Source: Halichondria panicea (taxonomy: Eukaryota > Porifera > Demospongiae > Suberitida > Halichondriidae). From it: a stretch of 64,000 nt of DNA. Positions within the stretch are counted from its first letter, which is position 1, and each line of letters opens with the position of its first letter. The DNA lies in contig NC_087378.1 of the NCBI RefSeq assembly GCF_963675165.1, forward strand, positions 124,001 through 188,000, read 5' to 3'. This document shows positions 6,603-62,556 of this stretch, piece by piece. The notes under the pieces are model-generated. The model was not told the origin of the DNA. It ran no database searches and saw only the letters and a program-made list of their open reading frames with translations. The translations under genes and the position numbers were made by a program.

Positions 6603-8719
6603 CTTGGTAGAATTAGAGAACTTGTGAGTATATAAATGAGAAGAACCTTTTCCAGAGATTTGATACAGCCACGTGGTTTGTATGTAGCGCATGCGAGTTG
6701 AGCTATCGTGATCGTGCCCCACCCCTTTTTCTGCAACTAGTGGGGCGTGCAGCAAAAACGAGGGAGGAGTTCAATATGGTTGAAGTATATTCATTAGTAT
6801 TATAGTCTCTGTACTAAAGCTATAGAAATCTTACTAGGGACCACTTTTGATGTGAGCATGCTGTATACACCCTGCTGAAAAATCAGAGCTTATTTCTCAG
6901 TCTCAGAGCTTGCAAGGAATCGCTACTGTTGCAGAAGCATCAAAGATTAGCACATCTCGCGCAAGAAGCCACTAATTTACTGTCTGCAAGCCATAACATC
7001 AGAAGAAACCTTCTGAAGTGAACCACCTTACTACAAGACAGAAAATGGTGGGCGTGTGTTTGTGTGTGTACTTTACCACTAGCTAAGTGCTTACTACTAC
7101 TATACTACTAGCTCTATGTAAGCTTTTGCATGGCTGATTGACCATTTGTACACTGAGGCTTGCTTTTGGGGGTGGGCCTCAGGCTGTTGTTCACTGAAGC
7201 CATGCTTTGGTGTGGAGCCATTCAGTAAGCATTTGGTTACTGCGATAGAAGTGAGCTTGAAAGCAATCTGGGATTCAGTTACCAGTGTTCCCTGAGCTAG
7301 CTAGCTCAAAAACTGACCAGCTACAAATCTATATAGTGTGTTTGCCGATTGTTTGACTGCTCATTTTTCGCAACACAATGTTTGTAAACTTTACAATGTA
7401 TGGACTGGTCCTTTTGTACATGCAGCCTCCATTTCCCCTGAGCTTTAGCACTAAACAATATAAAATATTTAAGTGCAATAACTAATCTCAACCCGATATC
7501 TACCATACAGTTTTGTACGGGTTTTCAATTGTACCCTTAAAACCAATCAACACAATGGTATCATGAATGATGCCTAAGGCCATTCATACGACTGTACACT
7601 GTCTTCACTTGCAGTATTGATCAGTTTATACTTTTGGGAGAATTAATATAATCTCTGTGTTGATTAACTATCTGAGGGTTGATCTAACTAGTACCTTGCT
7701 CTTATCATCAATTCCACTTGTTTTCCTAAACACCTTTTCGGGGAGGTTTTCAGTATTTAGTAATCTAAAAAGACTGTTGATAAATTGATGATAATAGCAC
7801 TTTAAACTGTACCGAGCATTATCTATCTACTTAGATCTCTAACGTTTACGTTTACGATAAGAAAAATGAGTCTAAAACAAAAATTATTCCCAAGGGCATC
7901 ATTAATACAATGAGCATCTACTTTCCCTTTGTGTTAACCAAAGTATAACATTTTCTCTGAACATTACTAAAATTTAAAGCACGTACAATGACACATTTAA
8001 AAATACCACAGTTCACATCAAAGACACATTTCTTAATCTGGTAATCTCATGGGACCGAATTCGAACAATGCGGTGGGCAATTCGAGGTTCTCTGGTTATG
8101 GTCCTCCCCACAACATTGTGTAGAGCACAATATGCATCCACACACACACACCCAGTACATCCAGGCATGTATAATGTACTACCATAAGAGTTAATCAGTA
8201 CTATCTCTGCAATACAATGCCTTTGGTCAGTCCTTCTTTATCAACCAGACTAGGATGAACTAGCAAGTGAGGGATATTTTGGCTTACCATTCCAGCTGTT
8301 TAATGAGCTGATGCAATTTTTATAACTTGCAGGGGTCCGGGTCAGTTCTTGTGGCTTGCACAAATAACCACGGATACTCGATCTGACCACTCAGACACAA
8401 TATTAAACATGTTGTTGTTGATTGTATACAGATTGTTAAAATGACATGTATTGGGAAAAATTGTAATCTTGGAGTTGGAATGCAATGAATAATAATATCA
8501 TCACCATTTTGGTATTAGTGTGGAGGCAAGGTCCGAAACATGAGATTGCACACAGTGCTTACCCCGAATTAACCCACAGTTGTATGCAACATTCTCTGAA
8601 TATAAATTCATACTTAAAAGGTAGACAGTAGGAAGGAAACGAGCTCTAGTGTATTCCCTTGTTCCATTAGGGTTCATCCTTCATAATAATTATGTAGAAT
8701 TTGATCTTGCAGAGTTTCC
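6603..8719. other. Divergent intergenic region CCT7/EBF
   Basis: 2.1 kb between the CCT7 and EBF start codons, with no conserved protein segment on either strand. An acceptor-like tract (tcttgcag) just before the proposed EBF exon at 8713 suggests an upstream non-coding or N-terminal EBF exon somewhere in this region. I could not locate that exon. Confidence 0.6.
6670..6675. promoter_or_regulatory. CACGTG E-box, CCT7 promoter
   Basis: Canonical palindromic bHLH-ZIP site (GCCACGTGG context) 68 bp upstream of the CCT7 ATG. It is one of a set of such boxes in front of the housekeeping genes here. Confidence 0.6.
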
Positions 8720-11700
8720 ATGGTAGCGAACACGGGACTTCCCCTTATCTCAGTCCCATCAGTGATGTCACTGGTTTGGTCTCCGCAAGCCCAACAGGAG
8801 GAGTGGGGGACATCACAGACCAGCACCTGCACATCACGACAGCAAGGTGAGTCATCATTGTACACTATGATCTAATAGCAAGTCGTTAATTATATGAGTT
8901 TTAGCTGGCTACGTTAATGAGAGAGTAGCTACGTGTGTAAGGAAAGTGCTTCAACATTCCTAGCTGTAAAGTTGATACCGTTATATTGGGCATTCTTAGA
9001 GGTCCTTCTACAAGAAGTAAGTCAAAGGGAAGTTTTGTGGTGAAATGTCTGTAACTGGGGTGAAACTTGTGGGCCTGAAATCAGATCATGGATAACATTA
9101 CAAGCACATTTTACCACAACATTACTTTGTGGGATGACTTGGTGTAAATATGATTGTAACATCAACATTAGAGCAGATCTAAATGCTACTACAAAGACTC
9201 CATTAACTTTATTAGTACACTATGTTATGCATGGTATCCTTTGATTCTCCTCACTGCACTGCAGAGCTGACCCTCACCATAACCTGTCCGTGGTACACTT
9301 TGAGAAGCAGCCACCAGACAACATGCGGAAAAGCAATTTCTTTCATTTTGTTATCTCCCTCTTTGACCAAAACCATCAAGCAGTGGAAGTCTTGAAAGCG
9401 TCTTTCAAGGACTTCTGTGACACCATTGAAGTGAGTGCACATAGTCATCTCTTGAGAGCACGTAGTCATTATAACTTTGTTCAACCACAGAACGGGCAAG
9501 AGTACAGAAATGGTCTAATTTACAAGCTCTACGTAAGCTACAGCGACGGTAAGTTACTGTAATGTATAGTATAGATAGATTTACCTATTGTGTTTTATTA
9601 TAGGTGTCCAAAAAGAAGAAGAGTTACATGTTCGTCTGATCGATTCAAGCACCAAACAGGTATTATATAATTACCTATTTATGACTCCACTCATACCTTT
9701 GACCTTATATAAGAGCACATGACAACCTATAAGCATTTTAATTATAACTAATGACAATCGGCAAGTATACACAGGAAAGCTGTGACCTCTCCCTCCCCCA
9801 CTCACTGTCTACATTAGCCACTAATTGCACGCATACTGGACACGACTTGATACTTCTCGTGTTACTCACAATCAAAACCATGAATTTGCATAACTCTGGT
9901 CACTCTCCAATAGCTCATCCCCTACGAAGGAACATGCAAAAACCCAGACTTCAGGCGAGTGCTCCTGACTCATGAGCTCATCTGCAGTCGCTGTCTCGAG
10001 CATCGATCTTGTGGAAACAAGAACGACACACCCTCTGATCCGATATTGATTGACAGGTAACTACAGAGAATGACTGATTTTGTTTATCTATTCATTTCAT
10101 GTGTTTACAGGTATAGGCTGAAGTTTTTTGTCAAGTGTAATCAAAACTGTCTCAAAAATGCTGGTAATCCTAAAGATTCTCGGAGACGCTTTCAGGTAAT
10201 TGCATACAACAGTATATGGTGTATCACATGATTTGTGGGCAGCTGGAGCAATTAAGCTTTTAAGTCTAGACAATTTCCTAATTCATTTCCATACTTATAA
10301 ATTATGCACTCTATACTAGATAATTAGACCATAATTATACTGACTATTATGGTTGCAGGTGGCTGTATATATTCCACCGAACAGTGACACTCCCATCGGC
10401 TGTTCTGACGCCATGTTTGTTCACAACAACTCCAAACATGGACGGAAGGCGAACCCAGTGTTGTACCCAGGGAGAGAAGCTATGGTGGGAGATGGTAAGA
10501 GGCGTGAGTATAAAAAAAATTATACGTATATATTGAATACTGTACTTAATATCAAGCATGCAGCGTAAATTATATTATGACATCATTCCTTGTGCGTACA
10601 GGGAAGCCGTACATCATCTCAGTACACCCCCACGAAGGCTGGACGACAGGGGGGTCTAGCGTTTGCATCATTGGAATGAACTTCTACGAGGGAACTGAAG
10701 TTGTGTTCGGGACACTGCCTGCTGCCTCGGAGGTGAGCTAATGTAATTGGAACCATTTTAGAATATTCACCACAATATCTACCACAGCTCATCAGCCCGT
10801 GTGCCATTGCCGTGAAGACACCTCCCAGTCCTCGGTCAGGAGAGGTAGACATCACACTTGTCTATCAAGGATCGCAATACTGCATAAATAACCCAGGAAA
10901 ATTTGTCTATCTAGGTAAGCATAATCAATGCAAGACTTACGCCTATAGTACCTGATTAAAGCAGTACTACTGTTGTTGGTTTCCTAAGTATCTTGTTATC
11001 CATACACCAGTTTGTGGTTAGCTGTTTTGTCTGTCTGTTTCATGGACAATAACTTAAATTCCCCAGCCAATATCCATGCTCAATCATGCTTGCTTCCTGA
11101 CCCCCACAGCTCCTGATGAGGCTCATTTCGAACACAATTTCGCACGACTAGAAAGATTACTACGAAATCCTGAAGAGCCTGATGACATTCCAAAGGTACA
11201 GACAATAACACACAATTGTTTACATGTGTGCTGGTACAATTAGACATTTCTCTCATTTATGTATTTTCATCAAACAATTTTAGACTGACATTTTGTTCAC
11301 TTTCAGGACATTCTGCTCAAGCGAGCAGCTGATGCCTTGGAAACCTTCTACTCCCTACCAAGGCCTAACTACAGTAGTGGAGGTGGTGCTGGCCCTCTCA
11401 CACATGGCAACTACTACCTCAGTTCTCCTGCATTGTTCACTGTTGCTCCACAGCAGATGCAACAGCATCCTCTCCTATCTCCAAACAGAGGCAAAATGAA
11501 CGCCCTATCAAGCATAGAGGGTGGGGACACGAGTAACACTAACGGAGTCAGTCGCTGCAGTAGTGGCGATCAGCCGGTAGGGGTGGAGGGAAGTGGACAA
11601 CACTTCTTCAGTTTCCCCACGACCCAAGGCTTGGGCCAAGCGGACGTGAAAATTGAGCATATGTCGAGTATCCACAAGCCCAAACCAGTCACCCCTGGAG

Positions 11701-12845
11701 GAGTGTATCCGGTCGCTATGCCATTTCTACAAGTGGCTCATATGCCTCAGGGCATGTATGGTTACCCGTCCAGCAGTGGAGACATGAATGGATTCATGGC
11801 CAGCAATATGGGCGAACACCACGAGAGCAACAGAAACAACAACAATAGCAATATTGGATTTGGCCATCCCATGGTAGCGGCCGGTTGGCATGGAAACCCG
11901 ATCCACCTCATTCCTCCCTCCCCTCTCTTCATGGCACCAACAGGTACATATTTCAGTAAGTAGCACAAACAAACAAAAAAGTGCCTAATGAGTATAATTA
12001 TTCAGTTTTTATAATGAGTATGTTTCTGTGTACAGCTTCCCCTGGGCCACTGCCAATCACTCCCAATGGTCCTGGAGGCTCAACGGTGTTTAATTTTCCA
12101 ATGATGTCACCAGCTAAACCAATGCGCTCAGTGTTGCAAGGCAACAAAGGTGGTAAGAGCAGCGACGGTCTCCTTCATCCTGGAGGAGGAGGAACAATCA
12201 ACTATCAGCAAACTATGCTTGCAGGTACGGTTACCTAATAATATTAATAACAGCTATAATAATATTATAAGTGATATAAACTGCATCCAACTTAAATTCC
12301 ACCCTCATTTACAATCATTGTACGCATTGCTACTGCATGCTTTTAGAGAACTCCCCATTTGTCCATACCACTGCAAGTATTTGCTGTGCATGCTAGCTGT
12401 GTATAGTTGGGCAGTCACTGATATCAGTATCATCTCTGTAGCACTGCCCTCTCCCGGGATGCCTGGTACTTTCGTGTTCCCACCGTCTACTCCAACAAGC
12501 CTCATTGCCCCTATCAGCCTGCCAGGTAGGAATAAACACATCAGCACTGTGTCACTTAATATATAAATTACAGTAAATTATGCAGTGTGAGCAATGCACA
12601 TACGTATACCTCATTGTATTATGCAGTGTGAGCAATGCACATACGTATATCTCATTGTATTATGCAGTGTGAGCAATGCACATACGTATACCTCATTGTA
12701 TTTTCCTCTGCACTACACAGACTTGACTACCATGTCTGAGGCTGTCACTACTTCTGTTTCCTTCGTCTCCACTGCACCAACAACACAGCAATCTATGGCA
12801 GACATGGAGGCACCCTTGTCAAAGAAACGAAGAGGCTCCCCCTAA
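8720..12845 (+). CDS. EBF: COE/EBF (Collier/Olf/EBF) transcription factor
   Basis: Nuclear DNA-binding factor of the animal-specific COE family. Exons: 8720-8846, 9267-9430, 9491-9548, 9604-9659, 9914-10056, 10111-10195, 10359-10494, 10602-10732, 10788-10914, 11110-11195, 11307-11943, 12036-12224, 12442-12525, 12721-12845; 715 aa. The DNA-binding domain (about residues 53-250) opens with [20 protein letters not shown]. It carries the COE zinc knuckle H-x3-C-x2-C-x5-C at about 155-168 and [17 protein letters not shown]. An IPT/TIG domain follows (about 257-342). The HLH has one helix 1 (FARLERLL) and one helix 2 ([15 protein letters not shown]). The C-terminal half is Ser/Gly/Pro-rich transactivation-like sequence ending in a KKRRG basic patch. 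The first exon is the least certain part: it joins in phase only by using a GAG acceptor at 9266, and its sequence is not conserved. Confidence 0.93.
12582..12704. repeat. 41-bp tandem repeat, 3 copies, last EBF intron
   Basis: Three near-identical 41-bp units beginning tgcagtgtgagcaatgc, ending just before the acceptor of the last EBF exon. Confidence 0.85.
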
Positions 12846-13257
12846 CCACCTGCAACACTTAGCAACCCTCACTAGCTCTACGCGTAGTCTATTTCACCAC
12901 AGATTTTATCGGCTTTGTATTTGAGAATTCATATCGTACTTTCATTACGCCTTTTTATACCTGCAAACTTTACTCAAATCACATACCTTTATCTCCCTTG
13001 TCCATCCCGTCTGCATGCATTTATCCAGAATAAAAAATTTATACTATTGACCTCGATCAACAAGGCGGCCATATATTGAGCCAATGAACCACGCCCCCAT
13101 GTATTACCTCGATTCCAAGTCGCATACATATGCGGCAAGGAATCGAGGCCACTAAAGAAGAAGACACGTGTTATCCAGAGAATCATCAAAACTAAGAGGT
13201 CTAGGTAAGAGAACATTTTGATGACAACTATTCATGTATTCCATCTGCCCCCAGAGA
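12846..13257. other. EBF 3' region and TIMM8 5' UTR/promoter
   Basis: 412 bp between the EBF stop and the TIMM8 ATG. It contains a probable non-coding first TIMM8 exon ending near 13204 at a GTAAGA donor. A short intron then closes at ccccag just before agagATG. No other coding signal seen. Confidence 0.55.
13165..13170. promoter_or_regulatory. CACGTG E-box, TIMM8 promoter/5' UTR
   Basis: Box (gaCACGTGtt) 88 bp upstream of the TIMM8 ATG, near the probable transcription start. Confidence 0.55.
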
Positions 13258-13515
13258 ATGTCTTTTGGAGGAGGCTCTTCTGGAGGAGGTGAAGTGGACC
13301 CTCAGCTGCAGAGGTTCATTGAAGTGGAGACTCAGAAGGCACGATTCCAAGCCAATGTTCATCAGTTTACCGATCTATGTTGGGACAAATGCATGCCTGA
13401 CAAGTTGGGCAACCGAATGGATGGAAAGACAGAACTATGTTTCAATAATTGTGTGGGACGATTTTTAGACACCACTGAATTTATAGTTCGTAAACTGGAA
13501 ACAATGAAACAATAA
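13258..13515 (+). CDS. TIMM8: Mitochondrial import inner membrane translocase subunit Tim8
   Basis: Small chaperone of the mitochondrial intermembrane space; with Tim13 it escorts hydrophobic precursors to TIM22. A single 85-aa coding exon holds the twin CX3C motif (CWDKC and CFNNC), which forms two disulfides. The [19 protein letters not shown] start and the FLDTTEFI segment match TIMM8A/B closely. The Gly/Ser-rich N-terminus follows the ATG right after a 5' UTR intron acceptor. An in-frame ATG at 13234 lies inside that intron and is unlikely to be used. The stop codon lies inside the AATAAA polyadenylation signal. Confidence 0.95.
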
Positions 13516-13665: not shown

Positions 13666-15251
13666 CTAGACCAGTTTCTTGGCTTCAAAAAAGCTCTTGA
13701 GATGTCTCATTTGCCAGATGCCCATTAGAATCAGGACAATGGTTTGGCCCAGTGACCACCACAGGACTCGAGCATTGGTACTGTCACTCACTTGTCTGAA
13801 TCGTTCCTCACGAACCTACAGTGTGAGAGTAGGAATTAAACAATGTTTAACAGAGTTTATATCATAGACCTTGGTAATAATATGGTCAGAACGGTTCAGC
13901 TACAATAGCTCAGTTATAGTATCAACTAAACCACTAGGCTTGTTACTGTACAGTTAAGCTACCTACATGTACATGTAGGCATGCTAAGTTAAAGTAACCA
14001 TAATAAACTCACTCTTTGGTATTCTTGTTCCTTTGTGATCTGCTCCACCTGATCCAGCAGCTGTCTCACTCGCAGCTGTAGCTCACTCAGTTTCTCCTTG
14101 GATGCTATCTGGGCGTAGTCAACGGCATGCTCTCCAATCGAGATATCTAGATGAACTCGCTGCGGGGAGGGAGGGAGGGTACACACCAAGCATAGTAGCA
14201 ATGTATAGAGGCGATGTACACACACCAAGCATAGTAGCAATGTATAGAGGCGATGTACACACACCAAGCATAGTAGCAATGTACAGAGGCGATGTACACA
14301 CACCAAGCATAGTAGCAATGTATAGAGGCGATGTACACACACCAAGCATAGTAGCAATGTACAGAGGCGATGTACACACACCAAGCATAGTAGCAATGTA
14401 TAGAGGCGATGTACACACACCAAGCATAGTAGCAATGTATAGAGGCGATGTACACACACCAAGCATAGTAGCAATGTATAGAGGCGATGTACACACACCA
14501 AGCATAGTAGCAATGTACAGAGGCGATGTACACACACCAAGCATAGTAGCAATGTATAGAGGCGATGTACACACACACACACTCCTATTAAGAAATCCAT
14601 ATAATCATAAGTGCACATAATTTATGCAGATATCTGTTCTTGTTGAGCAATAGTGTAGACATCAATAGAATTGCCTTATACTCAATGTACTGCACACACA
14701 GTCATTCATTATACCAGTCTGTTCCCTCCGAACCAACGAGTGCTGTTGGTACCGATGCAGATGGTGTGCTCCCCTGACTCGTGGGAGGTGAACGTGAACC
14801 GACCCTCGGCAGCATAGTGTCTCGAGAGAATCACTTTAGACGAAGGATTCTTTATCTGGAGAAGGGACACAAATATATTACTAAGTATACATTGCTTCCT
14901 TCCTTCAACAAATTAACCGATGGATTTCAATCAGTCATAAATCTAAACACAACACGTGATAATACAATACGACACCCTAAACTCGTACCTCCACATGCAT
15001 GCCGATCCCCGGGCTTGATGGCAACCAGTCTTGTCTATTGTCATCGTATAGCTGCGTCTTGTACTTCCCTACAGGGGAACGTTAATTGATTGATCTATAG
15101 ACGACCCTGATGACCTACCAACTATCATTGTTTCAGCTGGAACTTCCTCAATGAAACATTTCTCCTCAGTCTCAGAAATGTGAAAATATAATCCATTCCC
15201 CAACGATACACATACTGCCAAACAGAGTGTAACTGCTCCCCAAGCCTTCAT
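13666..15251 (-). CDS. TMED9: p24 family cargo receptor TMED4/TMED9-like
   Basis: Type I membrane protein of COPI/COPII vesicles that cycles between ER and Golgi. Exons in transcript order: 15251-15119, 15068-14989, 14855-14715, 14159-14013, 13815-13666; 216 aa. A signal peptide (about residues 1-20) is followed by the mature N-terminus [18 protein letters not shown] and a GOLD domain (CFIEE...TICIGTN, with paired cysteines). Then come a coiled coil ([23 protein letters not shown]) and a transmembrane helix around [14 protein letters not shown]. The cytosolic tail ends FFEAKKLV, with a dilysine KKxx retrieval signal and FF motif. It belongs to the alpha subfamily; the choice between TMED4 and TMED9 is arbitrary for a non-vertebrate. 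The start codon is 384 bp from that of CK1, head to head. Confidence 0.95.
14178..14576. repeat. 39-bp minisatellite, 10 copies, TMED intron 3
   Basis: Ten almost identical 39-bp units (core ccaagcatagtagcaatgta). Their only regular difference is a C/T at one site (tatagagg or tacagagg). The period is a multiple of 3, so long open frames arise on both strands; these are not genes. Confidence 0.95.
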
Positions 15252-15337: not shown

Positions 15338-15343
15338 CACGTG
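15338..15343. promoter_or_regulatory. CACGTG E-box in TMED/CK1 shared promoter
   Basis: Box (ctCACGTGgt) 87 bp upstream of the TMED ATG and 293 bp upstream of the CK1 ATG, in their 384-bp divergent spacer. Confidence 0.5.
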
Positions 15344-15635: not shown

Positions 15636-20385
<4,750 letters not shown>

Positions 20386-27000: not shown

Positions 27001-29196
27001 TCGGGACCGAGCGAACAATCTCGTACCAGTTCTCAACATGGGGGCAGTACGTGGTCACAATGCGTGGCTCCTATCTGGCTACAGGATCAGTGCAGGGAGT
27101 CATCAGTGTCTACGCTCAAAGTAAACAACATTAATTTATATGTACATTATGACAGCTGCAATTTCGATTTTCTACGATTCACACACAAATTAATTTTTTC
27201 CATTCTTCAGATAACATCACAGTGGTTGCCCCATCCAAGCAGACTGCTCGATCAGGACAACTGATAACACTCAATCTTATTCTACAAAACAGTCAAAACT
27301 CTCCCTATCAGGGGCCGATCAAAGTGACCCTTGAGTCTCCCACTGGTTCTAGACTGGCCAACTATCATTCCATCATCTCAGATGATGCAGAGATTAAGCT
27401 TCACTTCACTATGAAGCAGCCTGGATCAACCGATGCCATACTGAGAGCATCAAATGACGTATCTAAATACATGAACAACTTGAAACTCATTGTTGTTGGT
27501 AAGTTCAACACTTTATTGCTACTACATGTATGTACATATTTAATTGTTAAGTTCACTAGCTAGCTATAATTATACCTCTATTTTTAGTAAATTTCCGGCC
27601 ATGTGTCTATTTAACCCCCTCCCCTATCTTATACTAATATACAAACAGGGTCTGGACAATTCGGAGCTATCACGATTCTATTTGATGCTGACAAACTCCC
27701 CTCCAACTACAACACTCCTGAGTGGCAGGAGAAGCTCTCCTATTCTCTAAGGCAATTCATTGCCATGAAGTTCGATGGAGATGCGTCACTGATCGAGGTT
27801 GTGGGAGTGTCCACAATAGTCAGGACTGACTCACGTAAGAGGTCCCCCGGCATGTTCCTGGCTTTGGATGTTAACCTGCTCCCTGCTGACTATACAGAGC
27901 AAGCTTTTCAGGACACTATGCAGGTTAGACCAGACGCCTTCTCCAAAACATTGCCAATATTGTCAATATTGTTTGATTTCTACGTACTTACATGTACTTT
28001 CCTGCATGGTCTGTACGTGCATGCACTAAAGTTCATGTCGTATAAATGTGTGTTAAGTTATGGCTTACCTTAATTCTACCAACGTTAATACCAATAATTA
28101 TGCTTCTGCACATTTCCGGGGTCTAATATGAAGTATGAATCCCACTAATCTATTTTTGTTCTCTTTACACCTGTTCACTTTCAGATGGCCGACAAGGTGC
28201 TGGCAGACATTGCTGATGAGGCATTCACATTCAATGTTGATGATGTTGTGTTGACTGCCGACAGCGCCGTCAATCGGAACGATAACGACCGCTCTGGCCC
28301 AGAACCAGTTTCTAGTAACCCTCTGGTTGACATTGTCCTGGCAGTAGTATTCACAATCATCCTAGTCGCTGTTATCGTGGTCGTGGTGATTATCAGTGTC
28401 TACTGCTACAGGTCAGATCATTTGATAATAATGATATCACTGTCTTCCACACAATACTAAATAAGAACTAGAGATTGTAGATTGTACATATACTCATGAA
28501 TAATGTCCCAAGGTGCTGGTTGTGTGTAGGTGTAGTACGCGTAGGTATTGTACGTGTAGGTGTTGTACGTGTAGGTATTGTACGTGTAAGTGTTGTACGT
28601 GTAGGTATTGTACGTGTAGGTGTTGTACGTGTAGGTATTGTACGTGTAAGTGTTGTACGTGTAGGTATTGTACGTGTAGATATTGTACGCGTAGGTATTG
28701 TACGTGTAAGTGTTGTATGTGTAGGTATTGTACGCGTAGGTATTGTACGTGTAAGTGTTGTACGTGTAGGTATTGTACGTGTAGGTGTTGTACGTGTAGG
28801 TATTGTACGTGTAAGTGTTGTACGTGTAGGTATTGTACGTGTAGATATTGTACGCGTAGGTATTGTACGTGTAAGTGTTGTATGTGTAGGTATTGTACGC
28901 GTAGGTATTGTACGTGTAAGTGTTGTATGTGTAGGTATTGTACGTGTAGGTGTTGTATGTGTGTAGTCAGTTACGTGCTCTAAAGTGAAATACTACATGC
29001 TCAAGCTTCTCGTGTGTTTCATGCTTTTTAAGTGAATCAGTGACGAATTATCGTTTGTTTGGTATTTGTCGTGTGCAGGAGGAACAAGCAGCTGCAGATG
29101 AAGTACTCTATGATGGAAGAGCCTAGAGACGGGAATCTGAGCTTCAATGAAGCGTTCGGAGAATCTGCCGACACCAAGGAGAGTGGAAATGAGTGA
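21040..29196 (+). CDS. SORCS: SorCS-like VPS10-domain receptor
   Basis: Type I sorting receptor of the sortilin family. Exons: 21040-21239, 21953-22132, 22215-22308, 22358-22534, 22722-22866, 23076-23197, 23393-23515, 23678-23851, 24028-24180, 24366-24465, 24631-24919, 25033-25311, 25405-25524, 25660-25828, 25882-26068, 26461-26763, 26824-27120, 27211-27498, 27649-27923, 28185-28411, 29079-29196; 1339 aa. Signal peptide, then a propeptide with furin-type site RGQR. The VPS10 beta-propeller has Asp-box repeats (STDYGKTF, SRDGGFTW, SCDEGATW). The 10CC module (CRCSLEDFEWCDLGF, GYRKIPGDKC) ends near residue 745. PKD domains follow (WSFGDSTP, WDFGDGTNF), then further beta domains and the SorCS membrane-proximal domain (about 1134-1225). 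One TM helix (about 1273-1299) leads to a 40-aa tail. It has more extracellular domains than vertebrate SorCS (about 1,200 aa). Confidence 0.9.
26087..26412. repeat. 40-bp minisatellite, 8 copies, SorCS intron 15
   Basis: Eight 40-bp units (core gtgagtagtgagcaaagcta), nearly identical. The unit contains GTGAGT donor-like strings but lies inside the intron between the two PKD exons. Confidence 0.95.
28525..28965. repeat. 15-bp higher-order satellite, about 29 copies, SorCS intron 20
   Basis: Tandem 15-mers of the form gtacgtgtaggtatt / gtacgtgtaagtgtt, arranged in longer blocks that themselves repeat. The long open frames across it are artefacts of the 15-bp period. Confidence 0.95.
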
Positions 29197-29412: not shown

Positions 29413-32400
29413 TCAGTTTCGAGGTCTTCTCTTGGAAAATCTATTTCCTTTGCCTCTTGACTTCCATCGCCGCTTCCCGGCACCACCTCGACCACGCCCC
29501 CTTCCTCCTTTACCTGCAATATCACAACCACAATAATCCTATACATCAACACTACAATATTGAAAAGCTCGCTCACTGTACATGTATAGAGGCAACGTTT
29601 ATGTGCATACTACACACTATAGCTAGCTAATATATATATTAATCACACTTACTAGAGCCAGCAAGTTCCTCGAAGTCACTGCTCCACGTTCCACCAGTAG
29701 CTACAGCTGCTCTGCCACCACGACTCTTGGGAGGTGGTCTATTAAACTGGTTCCTGTATCTCTCTCTGTCCTTGGCTGTCATATCACTGATCTTAGTGAA
29801 GCTGCGTATAGGTGAGTTGCTGATAGTGCTCTCATCAACCATGAAGCCTCCGTCCTCAGTGGGAATCACCCGTAGCTCCTTCAATGATGTGGTCACATGA
29901 TTGTCATCTGATTCGATACTACCGTCCAGTGCAGAGCTGAGTTTGTCCAGAAGTGGGTTATCATTCTCATCAGGGGGTCCGTATGTTGAAACATCGCTAT
30001 CGGAATCGATGCGATCCCCTGTTTTAGTCAACACCTCTTTCTCTTTTGCTTGCAGTTGGTGAAGGGTGGGTTGGTATGATCGTCTGGTGGCCCTCGAGGC
30101 AGTTTGCTTCGTTCTAAAGGAGGATGGGGGAGAGGATGTGTTGTCAAGGCCATCGCACTGGGCTGCATGGACTGCAATGACTGACGGGAGGAACTGCTTG
30201 GAGCATAGCGGACACGTTGACAGCTGTTGTTTGCTACTACGAGTGTAACGTGTGTGTGTGGTGGTAGGTGGAGGGGAAGTCCCTTGTGTGTCCTCCGTCA
30301 GGTCAATCACACTGGATGGGACAACACAGAACATTATAATTACATGACTGTATCACACTTCACTGTACTGACTGCTAACATTCATATACAGTGTGTTCAA
30401 ACAACAAGTTAGTGTCCATTCTGTACTATAACTATGCCTTAGCTAATGCCATACACAAAACATAACTCCAGATTATACATTACCCTGTTCCACGCCTCTC
30501 CTCCGCCATGACTGTAGCTTCCCACTCACTCTCACTGCTCAGAGGTAGCCATTTGTTCCTCAAACTGTTCCTCCTCCGCCGCACACCATCACTCTCCACA
30601 TCACTCAGGTCAGTCCTCTCCGGTACATCACTCAGGTCCTTTTGAGGAGGGGTTAAAGTCCTCTCCGGCACATCACTCAGGTCCTCTTGAGGAGGGGTCA
30701 AAGTTCTCTCCAGTACAACACTCTCCTCCTCAGATTCTGATTGGGGAGTGACTTCAAGTATCATTTTGGCAGCAGCAGATTTTGGTGGTTTTCTGATTTT
30801 TTGGCGTTTCATTGTTAATGATGGTGTTCTCTTACGATTGCTAGTGGGTTTGGAATTGCCCACTTTTTGTGATCGAGAATTGAGCCAGTTTAAAGGAGGT
30901 GTCGCTTCTTTATCAAAGTCGAGGGCAGAGTTTCCTTTTTGATTGGAAGATGGTGTTTTCTGGGACACAGTTTCTGGTAGTTGTCTTTGTGATCGAGTGG
31001 ATCGTTTTAAAGTAGATAGTGATGTGTGTGATGCTCCAGAGGCAGCGGGTGATGTGTGTGATGTGTGTGATGTGTGTGATATGTGTGATGTGTGTGGTGT
31101 AGTTACTTCACCCTGAGTGTTCAACATGATCAGATCATCACACACATCCTCACCAGTTGGTGACACTGGTTGACTTCCGTTCATTGAGTTGGACTTATCA
31201 GGACTTCTAACAGCGTCTGTTTCCATGGCGTCTGATTCCAAGGCATCATACGCTTGATCGTAATCATAGTTCATGGGAGAATTTTCTGCTGACAATTGAC
31301 TTGCTGTAGATTGCTGAGTTAGCATTTCATCCTTTTCCTCTGGAGTAGATTCTTCTAACGAGAAAGTTTTGTTTTTATTCGAACTCTCAACAGCTGTTTT
31401 CGTCCTAGTTCTTTTAGGTAGTATTAAATTAAATCTATGGGTCATTTTTGAGCGACGAGTTGTTCGTCCTGTGGTGACACCAAATACAAGTTGTTGTGAA
31501 GAACCCATTTTAACAGGTTCTCCCCATTTCAGTCGAGTCAGCACTTTACTCTGTGCCTCGCGTAGTTGAGAGAAGTAGCTATTGAATCGCTCTATGATTT
31601 TAGGCGTGTGCTCAGTAGGGGAGCTTCCAGAGGGGCAGTACATCTTAGGCAGGCGGAGGTTGAGAGCGTGGACGTCCATTGAGGGCCGACTAGACACGTG
31701 CAGTGGAGGGGAACCTGTAGAGAGGGATAATTAAGGGTGATTACAAAATACAGGAAGAAAGTATCAATAAATTAGTGTTTTCGACCTAGCGTTCTATTAG
31801 AAAATAGTTGGCCTAGTGATGAGACTAAAAGAAATAATTATATTTACAGTATAATTATAACTTACGCGTATCTTGTGTAGACAAAGCCAGGCTCTTGGAG
31901 CAGTTGCCTTGGTTGACATTTGAGTCACTAGTATTATCAACATCACGAGTAATTTCCTTGACATCACCTGTAGAGATAGGATAAAGGGTGATTACAAAAT
32001 ACAGGAAGAAAGTATCGTAGAGCGGGTAATTTTCGTATGAACTACCCATTTAAATATTCGTACAGCTCAAGATAATGACGTTGAATCTATTGCAGTAGAC
32101 GTAGTTTTCGTAGTTTTAATTTTTGTATGATGCTCTTCGATATGAAAATTTTCACCACACGAAAATACGCTACACGGTATCATTTTTCACTACTAACCTA
32201 ACATTCTAGAAGAGCCTAGTGATGAGGCTAAAAGAGAATACAGTATAACTTACGCGTATCTTGTGTCGACAAAGCCAGGCTCTTGGAGCAGTTGCCTTGG
32301 TTGACATTTGAGTCACTAGTTTCATCAACATCACGAGTAATTTCCTTGACATCCTCTGGAGTAGCTGCTGGTAAATGTTCATTAATGGCTGCATACTTCA

Positions 32401-34486
32401 CAGTAGTAACTTCCTCTTCTTTAGACAGCACTACTTTGCTCACTTCTTCAACTGATTTAATTCTCTTTACTTGTGGTAACTTCATTGGCGACGAATTGTC
32501 CATCTCTTGGAACAGGATTTTTTGGGGTGAAGATCGTTTTCGTTTTTTCCTACTTAGACTGAGACAACTGCTTCGAGTTCTTCCCCTCCCACTTGTATCC
32601 ATGTGTTTGTTAGGCTCTGTGGGGGGTGGGGTTCGTGTTATGCCCCTCCCACTTGTATCCATGTGTTTGTTAGGCTCTGTGGGGGGTGGGGTTCGTGTTA
32701 TGCCTCTCCCACTTGTATCCATGTGTTCGTTAGGCTCTGTGGGGGGTGGGGTTCGTGTTATGCCTCTCCCACTTGTATCCATGTGTTCGTTAGGCTCTGT
32801 GGGGGGTGGGGTTCGTGTTATGCCCCTCCCACTTGTATCCATGTGTTTGTTAGGCTCTGTGGGGGGTGGGGTTCGTGTTATGCCCCTCCCACTTGTATCC
32901 ATGTGTTTGTTAGGCTCTGTGGGGGGTGGGGTTCGTGTTATGCCTCTCCCACTTGTATCCATGTGTTCGTTAGGCTCTGTGGGGGGTGAGGGATGGCTGA
33001 CCACTTGAAACGGTATTGAACGACTACCTGATGATTGAGTATTGGGCTCCAAGTTGCTAGAGCGTGTTAACACACCTGCTGTAGCTAGATCCAGATTTGC
33101 CTCATCAGAAAGCTTAGAATCATATTCAGCATGTGAGTTGTCAGTATTAGTTGCCACCGGTAACTGTTCTCTAATACTATCAACACTCTGAGCAGCTGTT
33201 GAGATAGGAGGTGGTTCAATAGAGGCCTCTCTAGACAATGGAGGGGTAGCATCATCTGACTCAACTATATTCTCATCTTGAGCAATGCTCTTAGCATCTC
33301 TAGCCACAATACTTGTAATAACAGTTTTATATTCATCACTTCTCTTCTTCGATTTTAGAGACCTGATACTAACTTTCTTCATCGACAATCGCACTTGTTT
33401 CGTGTCTGATTTAGTTGATGGCAGAGGTTGTGTGGACTTGGTATCTTCAGGTGTAGCTTCTTCCTTGTGCTCTGTAGCTCTCAGAATCTGGGAAAGAAAC
33501 GAGTAAAGAATTAAATATAAGGTACAGCAATTCTAACAATACTAACATCTCTCTCTATCTGCATGTCTTGTTTGCACAAGTCCCGGGCCCTAATCACAGT
33601 CTCAATGGTCTCCCGAAGGTTGTCTTTCTTCTGCTGCAGTTGGTGTAGAATTTTGCTCTGTTCACTCTCTTCCCTGATGGTCTCTCTTCGTCTCTTCCTG
33701 TCCTCTCTCTCCTTCTCCTGGAGACTAGCCTCTAGGGCCTTCTGAAGGTGTGTGTGTGTGGGGGGGGGGAAGTTATGTGTGTGTGTGTGTGGGGGGGAGG
33801 TTATGTGTGTGTGTGTGAGGGGGGGGGGGGAGGTGAGGTATTAAGAAACGTTACTGAGCAGCAATGCAATTGAGATAGAAACAAAATTAAAAGCTTTGGG
33901 GAAGAAAGTCAGTACTATAATGATATTTTAGAGAGGTGCATTAAGTACCTTTATTTCTTCCTCTTCTCTTTGGTGTAGCCGTTCCTCCTCGGACAAGAAT
34001 AGAGGAGCTGACAAAAAAAGTCAAATATCAAATGGTGGATCATGATTACTCACATCTCTTATTGGCCTTTGCTCTGGAACTAGATGGAGTGACATGAAGA
34101 GACCTCTTCTCCACATACACTGGGGTCGTGGGTACTTCCTTCTTGGCAGGAACCCTCGTGTTGTCATCATCAATGTGTAGCCTCTTTGCCCGCCGAGTGT
34201 CTTGCCTGAGGCTCTGGGTATCTATGAAGTCATACTGTGAGGAGAGAGTGATACCATAACATAGTGCAATGTAGTACCATAACATAATGGTATAGGAGGA
34301 CCACGCCCCCTCTCATACAATGAGGGGCGTGGTCGCAGTGGTCCTTGTGTAGCTAGTTAGTGTGCTTACTGGATCCCCGTCAACCTCCAGAGGAGCAGCA
34401 CTGGTGGACCCGGCCGTCTTCTTGCGTCCTGATAGCAGATCAAGTATATTTCCTCCACCTCTCAGTGATCTTTTCTTACCAGCCAT
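29413..34486 (-). CDS. UIMC1: RAP80/UIMC1-like BRCA1-A complex subunit
   Basis: RAP80 brings the BRCA1-A complex to K63-ubiquitin at DNA breaks. Exons in transcript order: 34486-34370, 34234-34054, 34007-33949, 33741-33547, 33487-32254, 31967-31866, 31714-30484, 30311-29653, 29513-29413; 1292 aa (human 719). An N-terminal UIM (EEEEIKKALEASLQ, about 113-130) leads into a charged coiled coil. Seven 20-aa repeats (PPPTEPNKHMDTSGRGITRT) follow. The region at about 652-698 (MYCPSGSSPTEHTPKII ... LKWGEPVK) matches the Abraxas-interacting region, including the GEPV end. A SUMO-interaction motif VIDLTED precedes a UBZ4-like finger CPLC-x14-H-x3-C with flanking GL, as in RAP80. Next comes SPIRSFTKISD, as in the human C-terminus, then a Gly/Arg basic tail. 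The second human zinc finger is missing. The assignment rests on this ordered set of motifs. Confidence 0.82.
31866..32370 (-). repeat. Tandem duplicated exon/intron segment in UIMC1
   Basis: The end of exon 5 and all of exon 6 encode almost the same 33 residues (DVKEITRDVD(E/N)TSDSNV...STQDT), each followed by C|GTAAGTT donors. Intron sequence beside each copy also matches, as does a further piece (gggtgattacaaaatacagg) near 31730 and 31987. This is a tandem genomic duplication that kept phase 1. Confidence 0.9.
32014..32182. mobile_element. MITE-like element, GCGGGTAATTTTCG family, copy 1
   Basis: About 170 bp with imperfect terminal inverted repeats (tagagcgggtaattttcg ... cgaaaatacgctacacggta) in UIMC1 intron 5. 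Two related copies sit in NOP56 introns. Confidence 0.7.
32585..32988 (-). repeat. 60-bp coding minisatellite, 7 copies, UIMC1 exon 5
   Basis: Seven 60-bp units in frame, each encoding a 20-aa Pro/Thr/Gly unit with only K/E differences and one diverged terminal copy. Nearly identical DNA implies recent expansion or ongoing homogenisation. Confidence 0.97.
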
Positions 34487-34575
34487 TTTGCCAGTCAGTA
34501 ATCGTGAACTTTGACTCTCGTATACTAGTACTGTCGTGAACGGAAACCACGTGCTTCTGAACACTGATTGAAGCA
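34487..34575. promoter_or_regulatory. Bidirectional promoter UIMC1/MRPL46
   Basis: Only 89 bp separate the two start codons. The spacer holds CACGTG (34548-34553) next to an ETS-like CGGAA. No TATA box seen. Confidence 0.7.
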
Positions 34576-36929: not shown

Positions 36930-37163
36930 TTCTAAACTTTTCTCACAACCTGCAAAACAAACATAGAGTAGTAGACTTTTAGAATAGCCTGTCAAAGCTT
37001 TGTATAACTTACAGAGAGAGTACAGAGGACTTGCTTTCAATTAATTAATTAAAGATCTTTTTTAGTTGCCACACATTTCACCACATATTTCCATTTATAG
37101 AACATCAATACCACGTGAGTAACTCTCAACCACGTGGCTCTAAAGAGACCAAGCAAAGCAAAA
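36930..37163. promoter_or_regulatory. Bidirectional promoter PSMD8/NOP56 with two CACGTG boxes
   Basis: Spacer between the start codons with canonical E-boxes at 37112-37117 (cCACGTGa) and 37131-37136 (cCACGTGg), 19 bp apart. The nearer box is 28 bp upstream of the NOP56 ATG. Confidence 0.65.
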
Positions 37164-40100
37164 ATGGCAAGTTTTTTCTCCCCTTACTTCAATGATATAG
37201 CCCTGTAATCATTTGTTCACTTTCCTCAGGTGCTGTTTGTCCTGTTTGAACATGCTGCTGGCTATGCCGTATTCCGTTGCAAAGATGTGGAGGATGTTGG
37301 TTCCCTCCAACCTGAAGTGCTGGAGGCCATGTCAGACTTTGCTCGCTTTGGTTCCACTGTCTCTCTGGAAGCTTTCTGTCCCTTCAAGACCGGAGCAAAT
37401 GCACTCGAGAATATCAATTGCATATCTGAAGGTACATAACTTTATATATAATACACACAAAAATGTAATTTAACTGAATTATGAATTGTAATGTTAAGTG
37501 TGAACATCCCACATTGCATGCATGCAGTGAGTGGAGCAATACTGCCTTGTCAGTAGCTCTAAGAAGGTCTTTCATAATCATGTCCATTCCCTCCTCAGGT
37601 GTGATGCATGATGACCTCAAGGTGTTCATCGCCAACAACATACCACAGGGCAAGAAAAAGAGCAAGGTCCTGTTGGGAGTAGCTGATCCTAAATTGGGCT
37701 CAACTGTTCAAGAGACCCTCAACATCCAGTGCATATCAGGTACCCTATCACATTTAACATCCTTATATCAATTTCCAAACACTCTCAAATTTCAAATTTC
37801 TCCAATTTCTTGCTAACCGCTGTTGATGGCATAAGGGGGTCCACTGTTGATGGCATAATTATGGTAATGATCTATTGTGCTCTGTATTGACACACTAGGG
37901 GGTGTGGTGTCAGAGTTACTGCGAGGGATTCGTCTCTTCTTCCCCAAGCTTGTCAGTGGACTAACACCTCCCATGACAGCTCAAGCTCAACTTGGTCTTG
38001 GGCACAGCTACTCTAGGGCCAAGGTCAAGTTCAATGTTCATCGATCAGACAATATGATCATCCAGTCCATCAGCTTGCTGGATCAACTAGACAAAGACAT
38101 CAACACTTTCTCTATGAGAATCAGGTGTGTACATGCATACACACATGGTGGATTTTTGTTATAGAACATTTGTATATTACACAACCCTCATATCATCCAA
38201 GACATGTGTTCTAACTATGTGGTTGACCTACTTGCAGGGAATGGTATTCATATCACTTTCCAGAGCTTGTGAAGATCATTCCTGACAACTTTCTCTATGC
38301 CAAGGTGAGAGAAAGATTGTGATGGTGTGACTGTTGTGAGTGTGTGTAGGTGGTTCGGTTCATTGGTTCAAGGAAGAATCTAACAGAGGACAAGTTGGAC
38401 CCACTAGAAGAGATTGTCATGGACTCCACCAAGTGTGAGGCCATCTTTGAAGCTGCTAGAGTCTCCATGGGTAAGTTCATCGGTTCACTGTGATGATCTT
38501 TACCTACCAAAATGTACAGTATAATCATAGTGTTTTAGTTGCACACTCTTTACCTAATGAACAGTTTCAACTTTTTATTTTATATTTCAGTATTCTTTAA
38601 TTATGGTTCTCTTGCAGGAATGGACATATCTCCAATTGACCTGATCAATATTGAGCGTTTTGCCACGAGGGTTGTAGAGTTGGCTGAGTACAGGAAGGAT
38701 CTCAGTAGCTATCTCTCCTCTAAGATGACCAATGTGGCACCTAACCTCACCACTCTCATCGGGGAAACGGTGAGTGGAGGGGTGGCCGGGGGTGGTGTAA
38801 TAGGGAGGAGCTTGTGTGGAGGGGGGCCGGGGGGTGTAATAGGGAGGGGCTTGTGTGGGTGGAAATTAAGTAGTTGGCAAATATTTATGGTTGTTCAAAA
38901 GCTTGTAATTGTGCAAACAAATTAAGTATGTGCGTGTTTGATATGTGTGGGTGGATTAGCAGATGTTTGTAGTCCTGTGTAGATACCTTGTAGAAATATT
39001 GTAGTGTTTGTAATGGTACAAGAATGATGATGTAATGGCTCAGCTAGATCAGGCAAAGGTGTGGTGTTCCTCTTGTTAAATGAACAACATTCATTGGCTA
39101 TGTGAGACTACTATGTACTGGTAACTAAGCCTTCACCTTTGAACCCACCTATATATAAAGGTCAGTAGGTCAATCACTTGAGCCCAGCTAATCATTACCA
39201 TTTAGGAGTCAGATATCTCTCTACTGAGTTGTATGAATGTACAATACTGCTGTCCCTTGAATTCTGAGTAACGTATAGCAGGTAATTTTCGTTAGTGTAA
39301 ATTTTCATATGAACTGCCCAATTAATTTGTATTTGCAATATTTGTACAGCTCAGGATAGTGACGTTGAGCGTATTACGGTAACTTTAATTTTCATATGGT
39401 GCTCTACAATACAAAATATACAAACATTTCTACTATGTGAAAATAACCCGCTATAAGGTAGGTATCAGATTATGAGACCTTGAGATCAAATAAGAAGTTG
39501 TAGAGACTCTGAGTCCTATAAGGCAAATAAATGGGTACTGGTGTATATTAGATACAGTAAATATTTTCTGGCTTGCATTTCAGTTTTCCAGCTGCTCTGG
39601 TTACAGCTGTGCACACGTCCCGTCCCATATATAGCGCCTCCTCCTCGGGAACAATTACCTCCTCTCTGTGTTTCTCGTCTGCATTAGAATAGTCTGGTTC
39701 ATAATTAGACAGTATTGTGTTCCCACATGTAACCTGAGCTATGGATATTTAATTTATAATAATGATATTCACAGAGTGTTTCCCTCTGAACAATGTTTTA
39801 GCCTCCACCTTGTAACTCTAGTAGACTATCCTCGCACACAAGCACACCTCCACTCTCGTCAGAGCACGTAGTTGGAACTATCGTAATTAGGTGGGTCAAC
39901 CTTAACTAATTGAGTTGGCTTGTATATACGTGGAGGTGCTAATTGGTTGGTACGCCAGGCGTGAAGTGTGTTATAGGTGTATTAATGACATGATAATTCC
40001 ATTTAACTAGTGATACATTTTTACAGCTCAGCAGTTTTTACACTTTGCGAACGTATACACACAGTGGTAGTTTAAATTTGGGAATGTTTTGTTGTTTAAA

Positions 40101-48640: not shown

Positions 48641-51381
48641 ATGTACGGACTAAACTATTCAACTGTTGCAATTCTGCTGATTCTATGTGTACCAGGTATG
48701 AACATTTCTGCAGTGCATTTAAAGCCACCTGCACTATATTGCTATTGTGCTTGCATGCATGGCAACCAGTTGTCCTGCTAGATTATAACTACTTGCATGC
48801 TTAACTTTCTCTGCTTTATTTCTTGTAGGATGCTACTTGGAACTGGATGCAGTTCGTACTCAACCTGAAAGATGTACTCTACCTAAACCAGCAAAGACGA
48901 TGGAGTGCCCTGAAAATAAAACAAGCCGTTGGTTCTTCCACGAAACAAAGGGATGCAAGAGATCCGGCTTTTGTGCCCCCGAAGACACAAGTGTCTATGA
49001 CGTACGAAATGACCAGAACTACTTCCTGACTAGAGAAAGTTGTGCAGAAAACTGCCATATGCGTGAGTCACTGACTTCTTGTTAGTTCTACTGAGAAGCC
49101 TAATCCACCCACATGGCTGTGCTTGTGATTGTGATTCATGCATAACTTTTGACTACAGTTGTGTAAACATCTACCCCAACACTGTTGACAACTCACCTTA
49201 ATAATGTGTTTTCGATCCTCATGCATTTACAGATGTGAGATGTCCCACTTTGAACCCTGTTGCCAACGGTATCGTCAGCAATGATGGAATTGGTTATTGG
49301 GTGAGCAGTGTGACCTATAGTTGCAACAAAGGCTTTATCCTCTCCGGAAGAGCAGTCAGAACTTGCGAGAGTAATGGACAATGGACATCAGAAGCCCCTT
49401 CATGCATAGGTACATTCTATAACAAATCCCCCAGTTTCATTTGTCCTGTTTAAAGTGCTAAGCTGTAGCATTATTTGCTCTGTTATGTTGTATATCAGTG
49501 CTGCACTAAACACTCATTTATGATACAATTCCCTTTCTCTTTGCAGCAAAATGCCCCAAGCCTAACACAGATGGTCAGTTTACCTTCTCTCCTCTGCAAG
49601 AGTTCTACACACCTGGGGACACTATTGTGTATGCTTGTGAGCACGGCTTTGGACAAGTGGGGGACAATGAGGCCCGGACTTGTCTTGAAGATGGTACCTG
49701 GTCGGGCAAAGAAGCTTCCTGCGAAGGTGAGAGATTTACTACGTAGATGGCGGGTCATGAATGACTGACTTGTGTACAGCTTTGTCTCGTGAATACTGTC
49801 CAGCTAATCACCATGCTAAGGGCTAGGTGGGCTGATCCACACTTGTAGCTAATTAGCGTGTGAGAATTGATAATGACCATGACTCTGTTTATAGTAATGT
49901 CTTTTTAACAAGATGTCCATTCCCCCCTGCACAGTGGAGTTACAGTGCTCCAAAGATGCCCTGAGGCCTATTCAACATGGATCAAGGATTGCACAGAATT
50001 CCACCAGTGTAGGATCAACAGTGTCCTTTACCTGTAATGATGGCTACATAATGGAGGGCATTGACACCATCCAGTGCGAGAGGTCAGGAGTGTGGAGTGG
50101 AGACCAACCTACCTGTTGGAGTAAGTCAAAGAAAACACTTCCTTTTAGTCTAATCAATAAGTCTAGAGGTCCGTGTACGTAGCCATAATTATTAGTCCAG
50201 ATATACAGTATTGTAGGATATAAAACTATACATTATTCATGATGTACTGTTTTGTTTCCTACAGAGATTATTATTCAAATGTGTGAGGAGGACAACCCTG
50301 CCCACGGTGGTAGTGATGTTACCAACGTAACTATCCCAATCCAACAAGGCGAAAGAAATACTTTCTTCATACCGTCAATCAGCAACCCTAATCCATTTGA
50401 CAACGGAACATTTGTTTGGGACGAAGAACTTGCCAAAGTACAAGGAGTGAGTATTCACGGTGATCGACTCAAGATAACGACCGTTCTAGCATCAGGAGAG
50501 AGAAAGTATCATGTGTCTTTCTCTGGATTCAGAGCTTACTTTGGACTAACTGTAACCGAGGTGACACACAAAACACCAGAGGCCATCCTAAACCCACAAA
50601 GTGTCGAGAAATCACTCGGAGATACACTTGTAATGATGTGTGTGTTCCAGGGCTGCCCCACTCCAAATGTCATGTGGTTTCATAACGGAGAACCTGTACA
50701 AGCGGACGGTGTCGCAATCAAGATATCGCAATTTTCGCAGTCTACGTTTACAACATCTGAGCTGATCATTCCAGTGATGAGGGAAGAAGACACGGGAAGT
50801 TATGTTTGCCAAGGAGAGAACGGGGAAGACCGTGTAGTCGACTCTATGGTTGGAACTGTAACATTAGTCTCGAGCACAAAACTAGCAAAGAGGTCGACTG
50901 AAGAGAATCCTCTCTGTAGAAGCAAGACACCCTCTGATACTGGTGAGTTGTGTGAATAAATAGATGGCTTCCTTAGTGGTTATCTAGTCAGGCTATTACC
51001 TCACATGTGCGTGCAGGACCCACCCCTAGATTGTAGCACTGATTCACCCCATTCAGTGCACATGTGTTGACCTTTTCTTGCCCTCTTACAGTGACTATTG
51101 TTGGGCGAGTACGGAGAGAATCAGTGAAGCTCAACACGGCTATCTCAACAGTGTATAGAATGAGTGTGGAGAGTGTGATCTCACCTAACTCTCAGAGATT
51201 ATCACAGAGAACTGTACGTACAATTGTACTCGACCATAACATTGAAACTGAACATAAACTCAACAACAATGGACTGTATATTTTACAAGGAAAACTACGA
51301 GACAATACGTTTTTCGTAGCATCGCACGACTCGATATTAAATCATTCCTTAGAATTGGAGCATACGATTCAGCAGTGCTGA
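48641..51381 (+). CDS. Secreted Kunitz-like / CCP x3 / Ig protein with possible NTR-like tail
   Basis: Exons 48641-48695, 48829-49062, 49233-49409, 49547-49726, 49935-50120, 50265-50942, 51092-51381; 599 aa, all junctions phase 1, which is typical of shuffled extracellular modules. Signal peptide about 1-19. A Kunitz/BPTI-like module follows (WFFHETKGC ... YFLTRESCAENC, six Cys, unusual spacing). Then come three sushi/CCP domains, one per exon (CPTLNPVANGIVS..., CPKPNTDGQF..., CSKDALRPIQHG...), each ending W(T/S)...PSC-like. A 678-bp exon holds a beta-rich region and an I-set Ig domain (LVMMCVFQGCPTPNVMWFHNGEPV ... DTGSYVCQGENG). The last exon (GRVRRESVKLN ... LYILQGKLRDNTFFV) might be an NTR/C345C-type fold; that is weak. 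No TM segment follows. I do not know a named orthologue. An AATAAA lies near 51692. Confidence 0.87.
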
Positions 51382-53326: not shown

Positions 53327-62504
<9,178 letters not shown>

Positions 62505-62550
62505 GGCAGATACAATCTTCTCTGTGTGTCTATCTTTCTCTAAATAGGTA

Positions 62551-62556
62551 CACGTG
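62551..62556. promoter_or_regulatory. CACGTG E-box, DDX56 promoter
   Basis: Box (taCACGTGgg) 46 bp upstream of the DDX56 ATG, in the 293-bp gap to the SH3 gene stop. Confidence 0.55.

Follow-up and report, generated by a model that had tools for sequence, protein, structure and literature searches.

A CACGTG box stands close upstream of most ribosome biogenesis (RiBi) and exosome genes sampled in a 131.5-Mb animal genome of 39 contigs, and it occurs in weaker excess at other housekeeping families. The box came to notice in one 64-kb stretch of this genome (C2:124001-188000, referred to here as the window), in which an original prediction had placed it upstream of every housekeeping gene and had taken it for a promoter code of constitutive genes. 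This promoter element is probably read by a basic helix-loop-helix leucine zipper (bHLH-ZIP) factor, with MYC:MAX as the likeliest reader and USF as the main rival. We favor, with fair though not high confidence, the interpretation that the promoter boxes, as proximal E-boxes of the CCACGTG(G) type, serve as sites for MYC:MAX, which would raise the expression of RiBi genes and of some other growth genes. MYC:MAX is put forward because the signal is replicated in RiBi families, because the bases flanking the boxes show a preference, and because MYC and MAX genes are present in the genome. The signal is real, but signals of this kind are known from animals already, and the box is missing at many housekeeping genes.

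In the window CACGTG occurs 11 times, compared with a mean of 10.9 in 100 dinucleotide shuffles, and because the total equals chance the whole-window count is uninformative. The placement is what stands out: 7 of the 11 boxes fall in six promoters that serve nine genes, three head-to-head pairs having a common box (Table 1). A promoter was here taken to be the 300 bp preceding the ATG or, where two genes stand head to head, the full inter-ATG space; the six add up to 1,583 bp. All six contain CACGTG, the top-ranked of 2,070 hexamer classes (p = 4e-9, or about 8e-6 when corrected for the number of classes), and the words in ranks 2 and 3 (ACCACG and ACGTGG) overlap it. When the six intervals were placed at random, none of 1,000 sets contained any hexamer as extreme, and in dinucleotide-preserving shuffles of the six promoters a mean of 0.24 carried the box, with none of 2,000 reaching six. 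The control words CTCGAG (13 copies in the window), GTCGAC (9), GACGTC (5) and CAGCTG (44) occur in none of the six promoters. The seven promoter boxes and four other copies listed in the original prediction are all present, with two of its coordinates off by 1. Its statement that the nearest box lies within about 190 bp of the start codon, except at CK1 (271 bp), agrees with distances computed from the translated ATGs, measured from the box centre. It had also claimed that EBF, SorCS and the Kunitz-CCP gene have no upstream box, which was checked in part only, with the first exons unlocated: going upstream from the EBF DNA-binding exon (9248), the first box met is that at 6670, situated between CCT7 (-) and EBF (+) and able to serve either gene, and from the first matched SorCS exon (23639) it is the one at 18426, 5.2 kb off. 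Both the word and the genes had been picked after looking at this DNA, which makes the in-window test a strong hint only; the real test therefore lies elsewhere in the genome.

Genes for replication were chosen by Pfam family search of the genome outside the window, and their upstream DNA was read. By a common rule, a box was counted if it lay upstream of the first matched domain residue and no more than 700 bp from it, and the expectation was taken from the window rate. Seven of the nine RiBi and exosome genes carry a box (1.0 expected), compared with 15 of 66 among all others (Fisher p = 0.002). The box is present at 2 of 7 proteasome core genes and missing at 5; 3 of 5 Sm/LSm genes have it and 2 do not, two of those three boxes being far out at -627 and -684; and among mitochondrial carrier genes it is found at 5 of 19 and missing at 14. 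Pooled, these non-RiBi housekeeping families reach 10 of 31 against 3.5 expected (p = 0.0016). Other DEAD/DEAH/RecQ/RIG-I-like genes have it in 5 of 19 cases (2.2 expected, p = 0.06), and GIMAP-like and other GTPase genes in 0 of 16 (1.8 expected; the chance of zero is 0.15); the pooled housekeeping families differ from the GTPases at p = 0.01. The strong class is ribosome biogenesis and the exosome, and other housekeeping families show a weaker excess. The original prediction of a box at every housekeeping gene, which stands for all six listed promoters of the window, is too broad for the genome as a whole.

These counts cover 22 fetched loci of 40 listed DEAD matches, 19 of 78 mitochondrial carrier matches (those with an early profile start), 5 of 12 LSM, 16 of 66 MMR_HSR1 and 4 of 8 RNase_PH matches. 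Left out were a C-terminal Brix exon (L039), a locus in the same gene as L036 (L035), an inner RNase_PH domain that is PNPT1-like by eye (L084), all helix-loop-helix (HLH) loci, proteasome matches to internal or C-terminal parts of the profile (L012, L015-L021, L024, L025, L027-L030, L033, L034 and three without a locus), and a proteasome-like array on C9 (L006-L011, L022), in which a box lies 456-459 bp upstream of two copies (L010, L011). This array (C9:1081963-1149146; L006-L011, L015-L018, L020-L022, L027) comprises at least six tandem proteasome-alpha-like exon copies, PSMA7-like by eye, over about 67 kb. The PF01926 GTPases are mostly GIMAP-like expansions and were therefore used as the control class; at least 3 of the 16 (L087, L096, L101) are other GTPases by eye, L093 has just 571 bp of upstream sequence, and L099 has a box at -720, barely beyond the rule. 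Twelve weak MMR_HSR1 matches at C12:1114842-2078732 lie in very long open frames (870-4555 amino acids) and are perhaps very large GTPase genes.

For eight of the RiBi genes a start codon was located, and EXOSC4, for which none was found, falls outside this count. An upstream box is present at seven of the eight, the nearest being 19-100 bp off (Table 1). The count is seven either way, with two genes exchanged: by the 700-bp rule PPAN is a match and RPF1 a miss, the RPF1 boxes being 1.1-1.2 kb from the domain start, and the ATG reverses both. In the 250-bp promoters of these eight genes CACGTG is again the first hexamer (p = 1.6e-9), and in their shuffles a mean of 0.39 carried the box, with 0 of 2,000 reaching seven. 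Solved structures served to check the identity of five of the nine genes. The best solved-chain matches were DDX10, RRP46 (EXOSC5), Ribosome production factor 1 and Nucleolar RNA helicase 2 (DDX21); the fifth gene matched an unnamed helicase and then SPB4, which we take to be of the DDX55 type.

Table 1. CACGTG boxes and start codons in the 64-kb window (window positions), and the nearest upstream boxes of seven RiBi genes elsewhere in the genome
Feature	Position	Strand	Remarks
CACGTG	6670..6675	.	flanks CCACGTGG; 187 bp upstream of CCT7 ATG
CACGTG	13165..13170	.	flanks ACACGTGT; 90 bp upstream of TIMM8 ATG
CACGTG	14953..14958	.	downstream of TMED ATG, within TMED by eye; taken as background
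CACGTG	15338..15343	.	flanks TCACGTGG; common TMED(-)/CK1(+) head-to-head promoter; 89 / 271 bp to ATGs
CACGTG	18426..18431	.	about 300 bp past a short-repeat stretch; background, though SorCS first exon unlocated
CACGTG	31695..31700	.	within long open reading frame 30480-31730 (-); background
CACGTG	34548..34553	.	flanks CCACGTGC; in 89-bp gap between UIMC1-like and MRPL46 ATGs; 64 bp (UIMC1-like), 25 bp (MRPL46)
CACGTG, first of pair	37112..37117	.	CCACGTGA; PSMD8(-)/NOP56(+) divergent promoter; 185 bp (PSMD8), 49 bp (NOP56)
CACGTG, second of pair	37131..37136	.	CCACGTGG; 204 bp (PSMD8), 30 bp upstream of NOP56 ATG
CACGTG	59531..59536	.	within DDX56 gene body by eye; background
CACGTG	62551..62556	.	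flanks ACACGTGG; 49 bp upstream of DDX56 ATG
CCT7 ATG	6485	-	translation
TIMM8 ATG	13258	+	translation
TMED ATG	15251	-	translation
CK1 ATG	15612	+	translation
UIMC1-like ATG	34486	-	translation
MRPL46 ATG	34576	+	translation
PSMD8 ATG	36929	-	translation
NOP56 ATG	37164	+	by eye
DDX56 ATG	62504	-	translation
DDX10			nearest upstream box 19 bp from ATG
DDX55			nearest upstream box 31 bp from ATG
DDX21			nearest upstream box 100 bp from ATG
EXOSC5			nearest upstream box 19 bp from ATG
EXOSC9			nearest upstream box 40 bp from ATG; four boxes
RPF2			nearest upstream box 19 bp from ATG
RPF1			nearest upstream box 29 bp from ATG; two boxes

The bases beside the core were compared between 18 promoter boxes (7 in the window and 11 at the seven RiBi genes) and 55 other boxes, which may include true promoter boxes and so weaken the contrast; the comparison omits duplicates and the loci L001-L004, which had been found by searching for the box. 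A C stands 5' of CAC in 26 of 36 promoter half-sites, compared with 30 of 110 elsewhere (p = 3e-6), and at least one C flank is present in 17 of 18 promoter boxes versus 23 of 55 others; outside the window alone the figures are 11 of 11 and 22 of 51. MYC:MAX presumably prefers a C in this position. A T is scarce, occurring on 2 of 36 promoter half-sites versus 25 of 110 elsewhere (p = 0.025) and on both sides of none of the 18 promoter boxes. According to the covered parts of two studies, a 5' T favours MITF and disfavours MYC (PMC10539308, PMC5515408), and the scarcity of T flanks is evidence against a MITF/TFE reader. The CLEAR element of MITF/TFE (TCACGTGA) has the same core hexamer (PMC10539308, in part), whereas its T flanks are rare here, standing at 2 of 18 boxes and on one side only.

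Candidate readers are encoded in the genome. The bHLH-ZIP region at L042 has Myc proto-oncogene protein as its best match (1.5e-18), and the exon at L045 best matches Max, with a second MAX exon recognised by eye. Among 19 of the 20 HLH matches, others appear by eye to be MXD/MNT-like, SREBP, ARNT, CLOCK-like, AP4, HES/HEY and USF-like; none of these 19 was recognised by eye as MITF/TFE, which does not amount to showing its absence. The proposal of a promoter element probably read by a bHLH-ZIP factor is retained, with the flanks speaking against MITF/TFE; a code for constitutive genes in general is not supported. A USF-like exon, so judged by eye with six of seven copies read, accounts for seven HLH matches over 1.5 Mb (C1:15719282-17195321, L053-L059), and at L053 it is followed by a leucine-zipper-like exon.

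In the mechanism that we propose, a MYC:MAX heterodimer would bind the mostly C-flanked box some 20-270 bp upstream of the start codon, a position that is probably close to the transcription start. Once bound, it would raise transcription of RiBi genes and some other growth genes in growing cells, and MAX with partners of the MXD/MNT type would probably oppose it and lower the output. A single box, or a pair of them, could act on both genes where two are arranged head to head, as in PSMD8/NOP56.

Besides the post hoc choice made in the window, several points weigh against this interpretation. PPAN has no box upstream of its ATG, its boxes lying only downstream in the apparent intron 1, and EXOSC4 has none in the 1.66 kb upstream of its domain start. 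Both names, like those of RPF2 and EXOSC9, are presumed from recall and Pfam family, and the boxes were visible when genes were labelled as RiBi. The box of TIMM8 is the sole member of the 18 without a C flank, and the preference of MYC:MAX for C is presumed. Counted per box, the scarcity of T is not significant (2 of 18 versus 19 of 55, p = 0.07). An A flank is not enriched (7 of 36 promoter half-sites versus 34 of 110 elsewhere), and some USF-, HES/HEY-, ARNT-, CLOCK- and SREBP-type factors, genes for which exist here by eye, can bind CACGTG. Many array probes bound by MYC:MAX carry an A beside the core (PMC5515408, in part). What was observed is the position of the boxes, their enrichment, its replication, the flank preference and the MYC and MAX genes; from these we infer occupancy by MYC:MAX, the direction of its effect, the transcription starts and the action on both genes of a pair.

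Among the alternatives, it is unlikely, in our judgment, that only the RiBi boxes are real and that those at non-RiBi genes of the window are there by chance or for other readers. The many proteasome and mitochondrial carrier genes without a box are in line with this, as are the atypical flanks at TIMM8 and the little conservation beyond RiBi genes reported in the covered part of PMC2570694. Chance is nonetheless hard to reconcile with the shuffled window promoters, since four of the six promoters contain no RiBi gene, and the non-RiBi housekeeping families exceed expectation outside the window as well.

We give slightly less weight to the idea that USF (or MITF/TFE), not MYC:MAX, is the main reader, the box then being a constitutive promoter element. 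The USF-like exons, one of them (L053) followed by the zipper exon, would supply such a reader; some boxed genes (UIMC1-like, CK1, TMED) are not plain growth genes; and a preference for C flanks is no proof of MYC (PMC5515408, in part). For MITF, which in the covered part of PMC10539308 favours a 5' T, the flanks described above speak otherwise, and the strongest boxed class, ribosome biogenesis, is the published Myc class (PMC2570694, in part).

It is improbable that the box belongs to divergent (bidirectional) promoters as such, irrespective of gene function. Half of the window promoters (three of six) do have the head-to-head arrangement, and the Amphimedon E-box is four times commoner in bidirectional promoters (PMC4773876, in the part covered), but CCT7, TIMM8 and DDX56 lie outside such close pairs, and the RiBi set, with a box at seven of eight genes, was picked by function-linked families, with orientation unscored. 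An artefact of composition, in which CpG-richer promoters (CpG observed/expected 0.67 in the six promoters versus 0.46 in the window) gather CpG words, is refuted by the dinucleotide shuffles of both promoter sets and by the three CpG palindromes of identical letters found in none of the six promoters.

The MYC:MAX interpretation can also be drawn more widely. Tentatively, and with much more doubt than belief, the C-flanked G-box might mark growth genes at large (chaperonin, proteasome lid, mitochondrial import and ribosome, splicing), acting in both directions at shared promoters, and the narrow RiBi pattern might be what has been conserved of a MYC growth code that was broader in the ancestor.

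Three of the boxed RiBi genes, RPF2, RPF1 and NOP56, presumably bore the older names BXDC1, BXDC5 and NOL5A. Those names are on the RiBi lists of a study of holozoans that is covered here in part (PMC2570694; Brown, Cole and Erives 2008), in which about 50-90% of RiBi genes in the studied species except the nematode have CACGTG no farther than 600 bp from the 5' end, as do about 20% of human control promoters. The present genome resembles that regulon, termed E(CG)-RiBi, in having the box near the starts of most RiBi genes (7 of 9 by domain and 7 of 8 by ATG, together with NOP56 and DDX56), in encoding Myc and Max, and in the low control rate of its GTPase genes. It differs in that some non-RiBi housekeeping promoters are also boxed. 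The extended flank of Drosophila, MAACACGTGYG, has 0 copies on either strand of the window and by eye fits none of the 11 RiBi boxes, the promoter-box flanks here being mostly C/G (CCACGTGG).

The G-box of the sponge Amphimedon reportedly has the sequence CCACGTGG. In that species an E-box that hardly differs from the plant G-box lies near starts, where NRF-1 sites are also enriched (PMC4773876; Fernandez-Valverde and Degnan 2016). The likeness lies in enrichment at starts in a compact animal genome, with a C flank on nearly all promoter boxes here; the Amphimedon element, in contrast, is not linked to a gene class, and 'Myc' has 0 occurrences in the part of that paper covered. In Suberites domuncula the FAU promoter likewise places CACGTG at a sponge growth gene and c-Myc has been proposed for it, but a single gene is concerned (PMC4515611, in part). 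The word 'sponge' occurs once in the covered text of PMC2570694, in the methods for a bHLH tree, and in the portion of the open-access literature searched we found no sponge-like genome in which the G-box was tied to RiBi genes and flanks. Tying it to both is a small step beyond published work. For a compact animal genome, sequence alone suffices to reveal a box of the Myc type at genes for ribosome building, and the flank preference narrows down the candidate reader. If the genome belongs to a sponge, for which its compactness speaks, the finding would connect the G-box of sponges with the Myc-RiBi regulon of holozoans, which are unlinked in the covered literature. The boxes offer concrete sites for testing the age of the MYC growth programme.

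Two wider patterns were tried and set aside. The palindrome ACCACGTGGT has no global excess (124 copies in the genome versus 129 for the reversed word), and box pairs at the PSMD8/NOP56 spacing of 13 bases between cores occur at 17 places versus 23 for a reversed control, several of them being mutual repeats. Of the first 50 copies of ACCACGTGGT in contig order, 30 lie within 2.7 Mb (C1:14731814-17386592), and one 25-base sequence that contains two boxes is found twice on C1 and also on C12, which indicates that dispersed repeats carry boxes. NRF-1-like words were also noted: three of eight RiBi promoters (L062, L082, L036) have TGCGCA in the 250 bp before the ATG, the 64-kb window has one copy of it, and an NRF-1-like GCGCATGC stands at window position 6687, 11 bases beyond the CCT7 box.

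As to gene content, Pfam searches of 30 chosen open reading frames of the window found COE1_DBD (EBF), Sortilin-Vps10, Nop (by which NOP56 was named), Ig and PKD domains. The names CCT7 and DDX56 come from the translations together with sub-cutoff Cpn60_TCP1 and DEAD matches, respectively, a 51-amino-acid piece of DDX56 having no match in the PDB, and the window PSMD8 is matched by solved PSMD8 chains. TIMM8, TMED, CK1, MRPL46 and the UIMC1-like gene, which contains a zf-C2HC_2 domain on the minus strand, were named by eye from their translations. Scans of the window for transfer RNAs and Rfam families found nothing. By eye, the start of NOP56 (37164-37229) seems to consist of a first coding exon with the ATG alone, followed by a GC-AG intron (ATG|GCAAGT ... 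CAG|GTGCTG). An Ig-domain gene (Ig_3, I-set) at 50246-50956 (+), absent from the earlier gene list, has no CACGTG within 13 kb upstream. Two minisatellites are present, one at 28524-28962 with 30/45-bp units in 14.6/9.8 copies, and one at 32572-32988 with 6.9 copies of a 60-bp unit, the latter overlapping a long minus-strand open reading frame (32228-33532).

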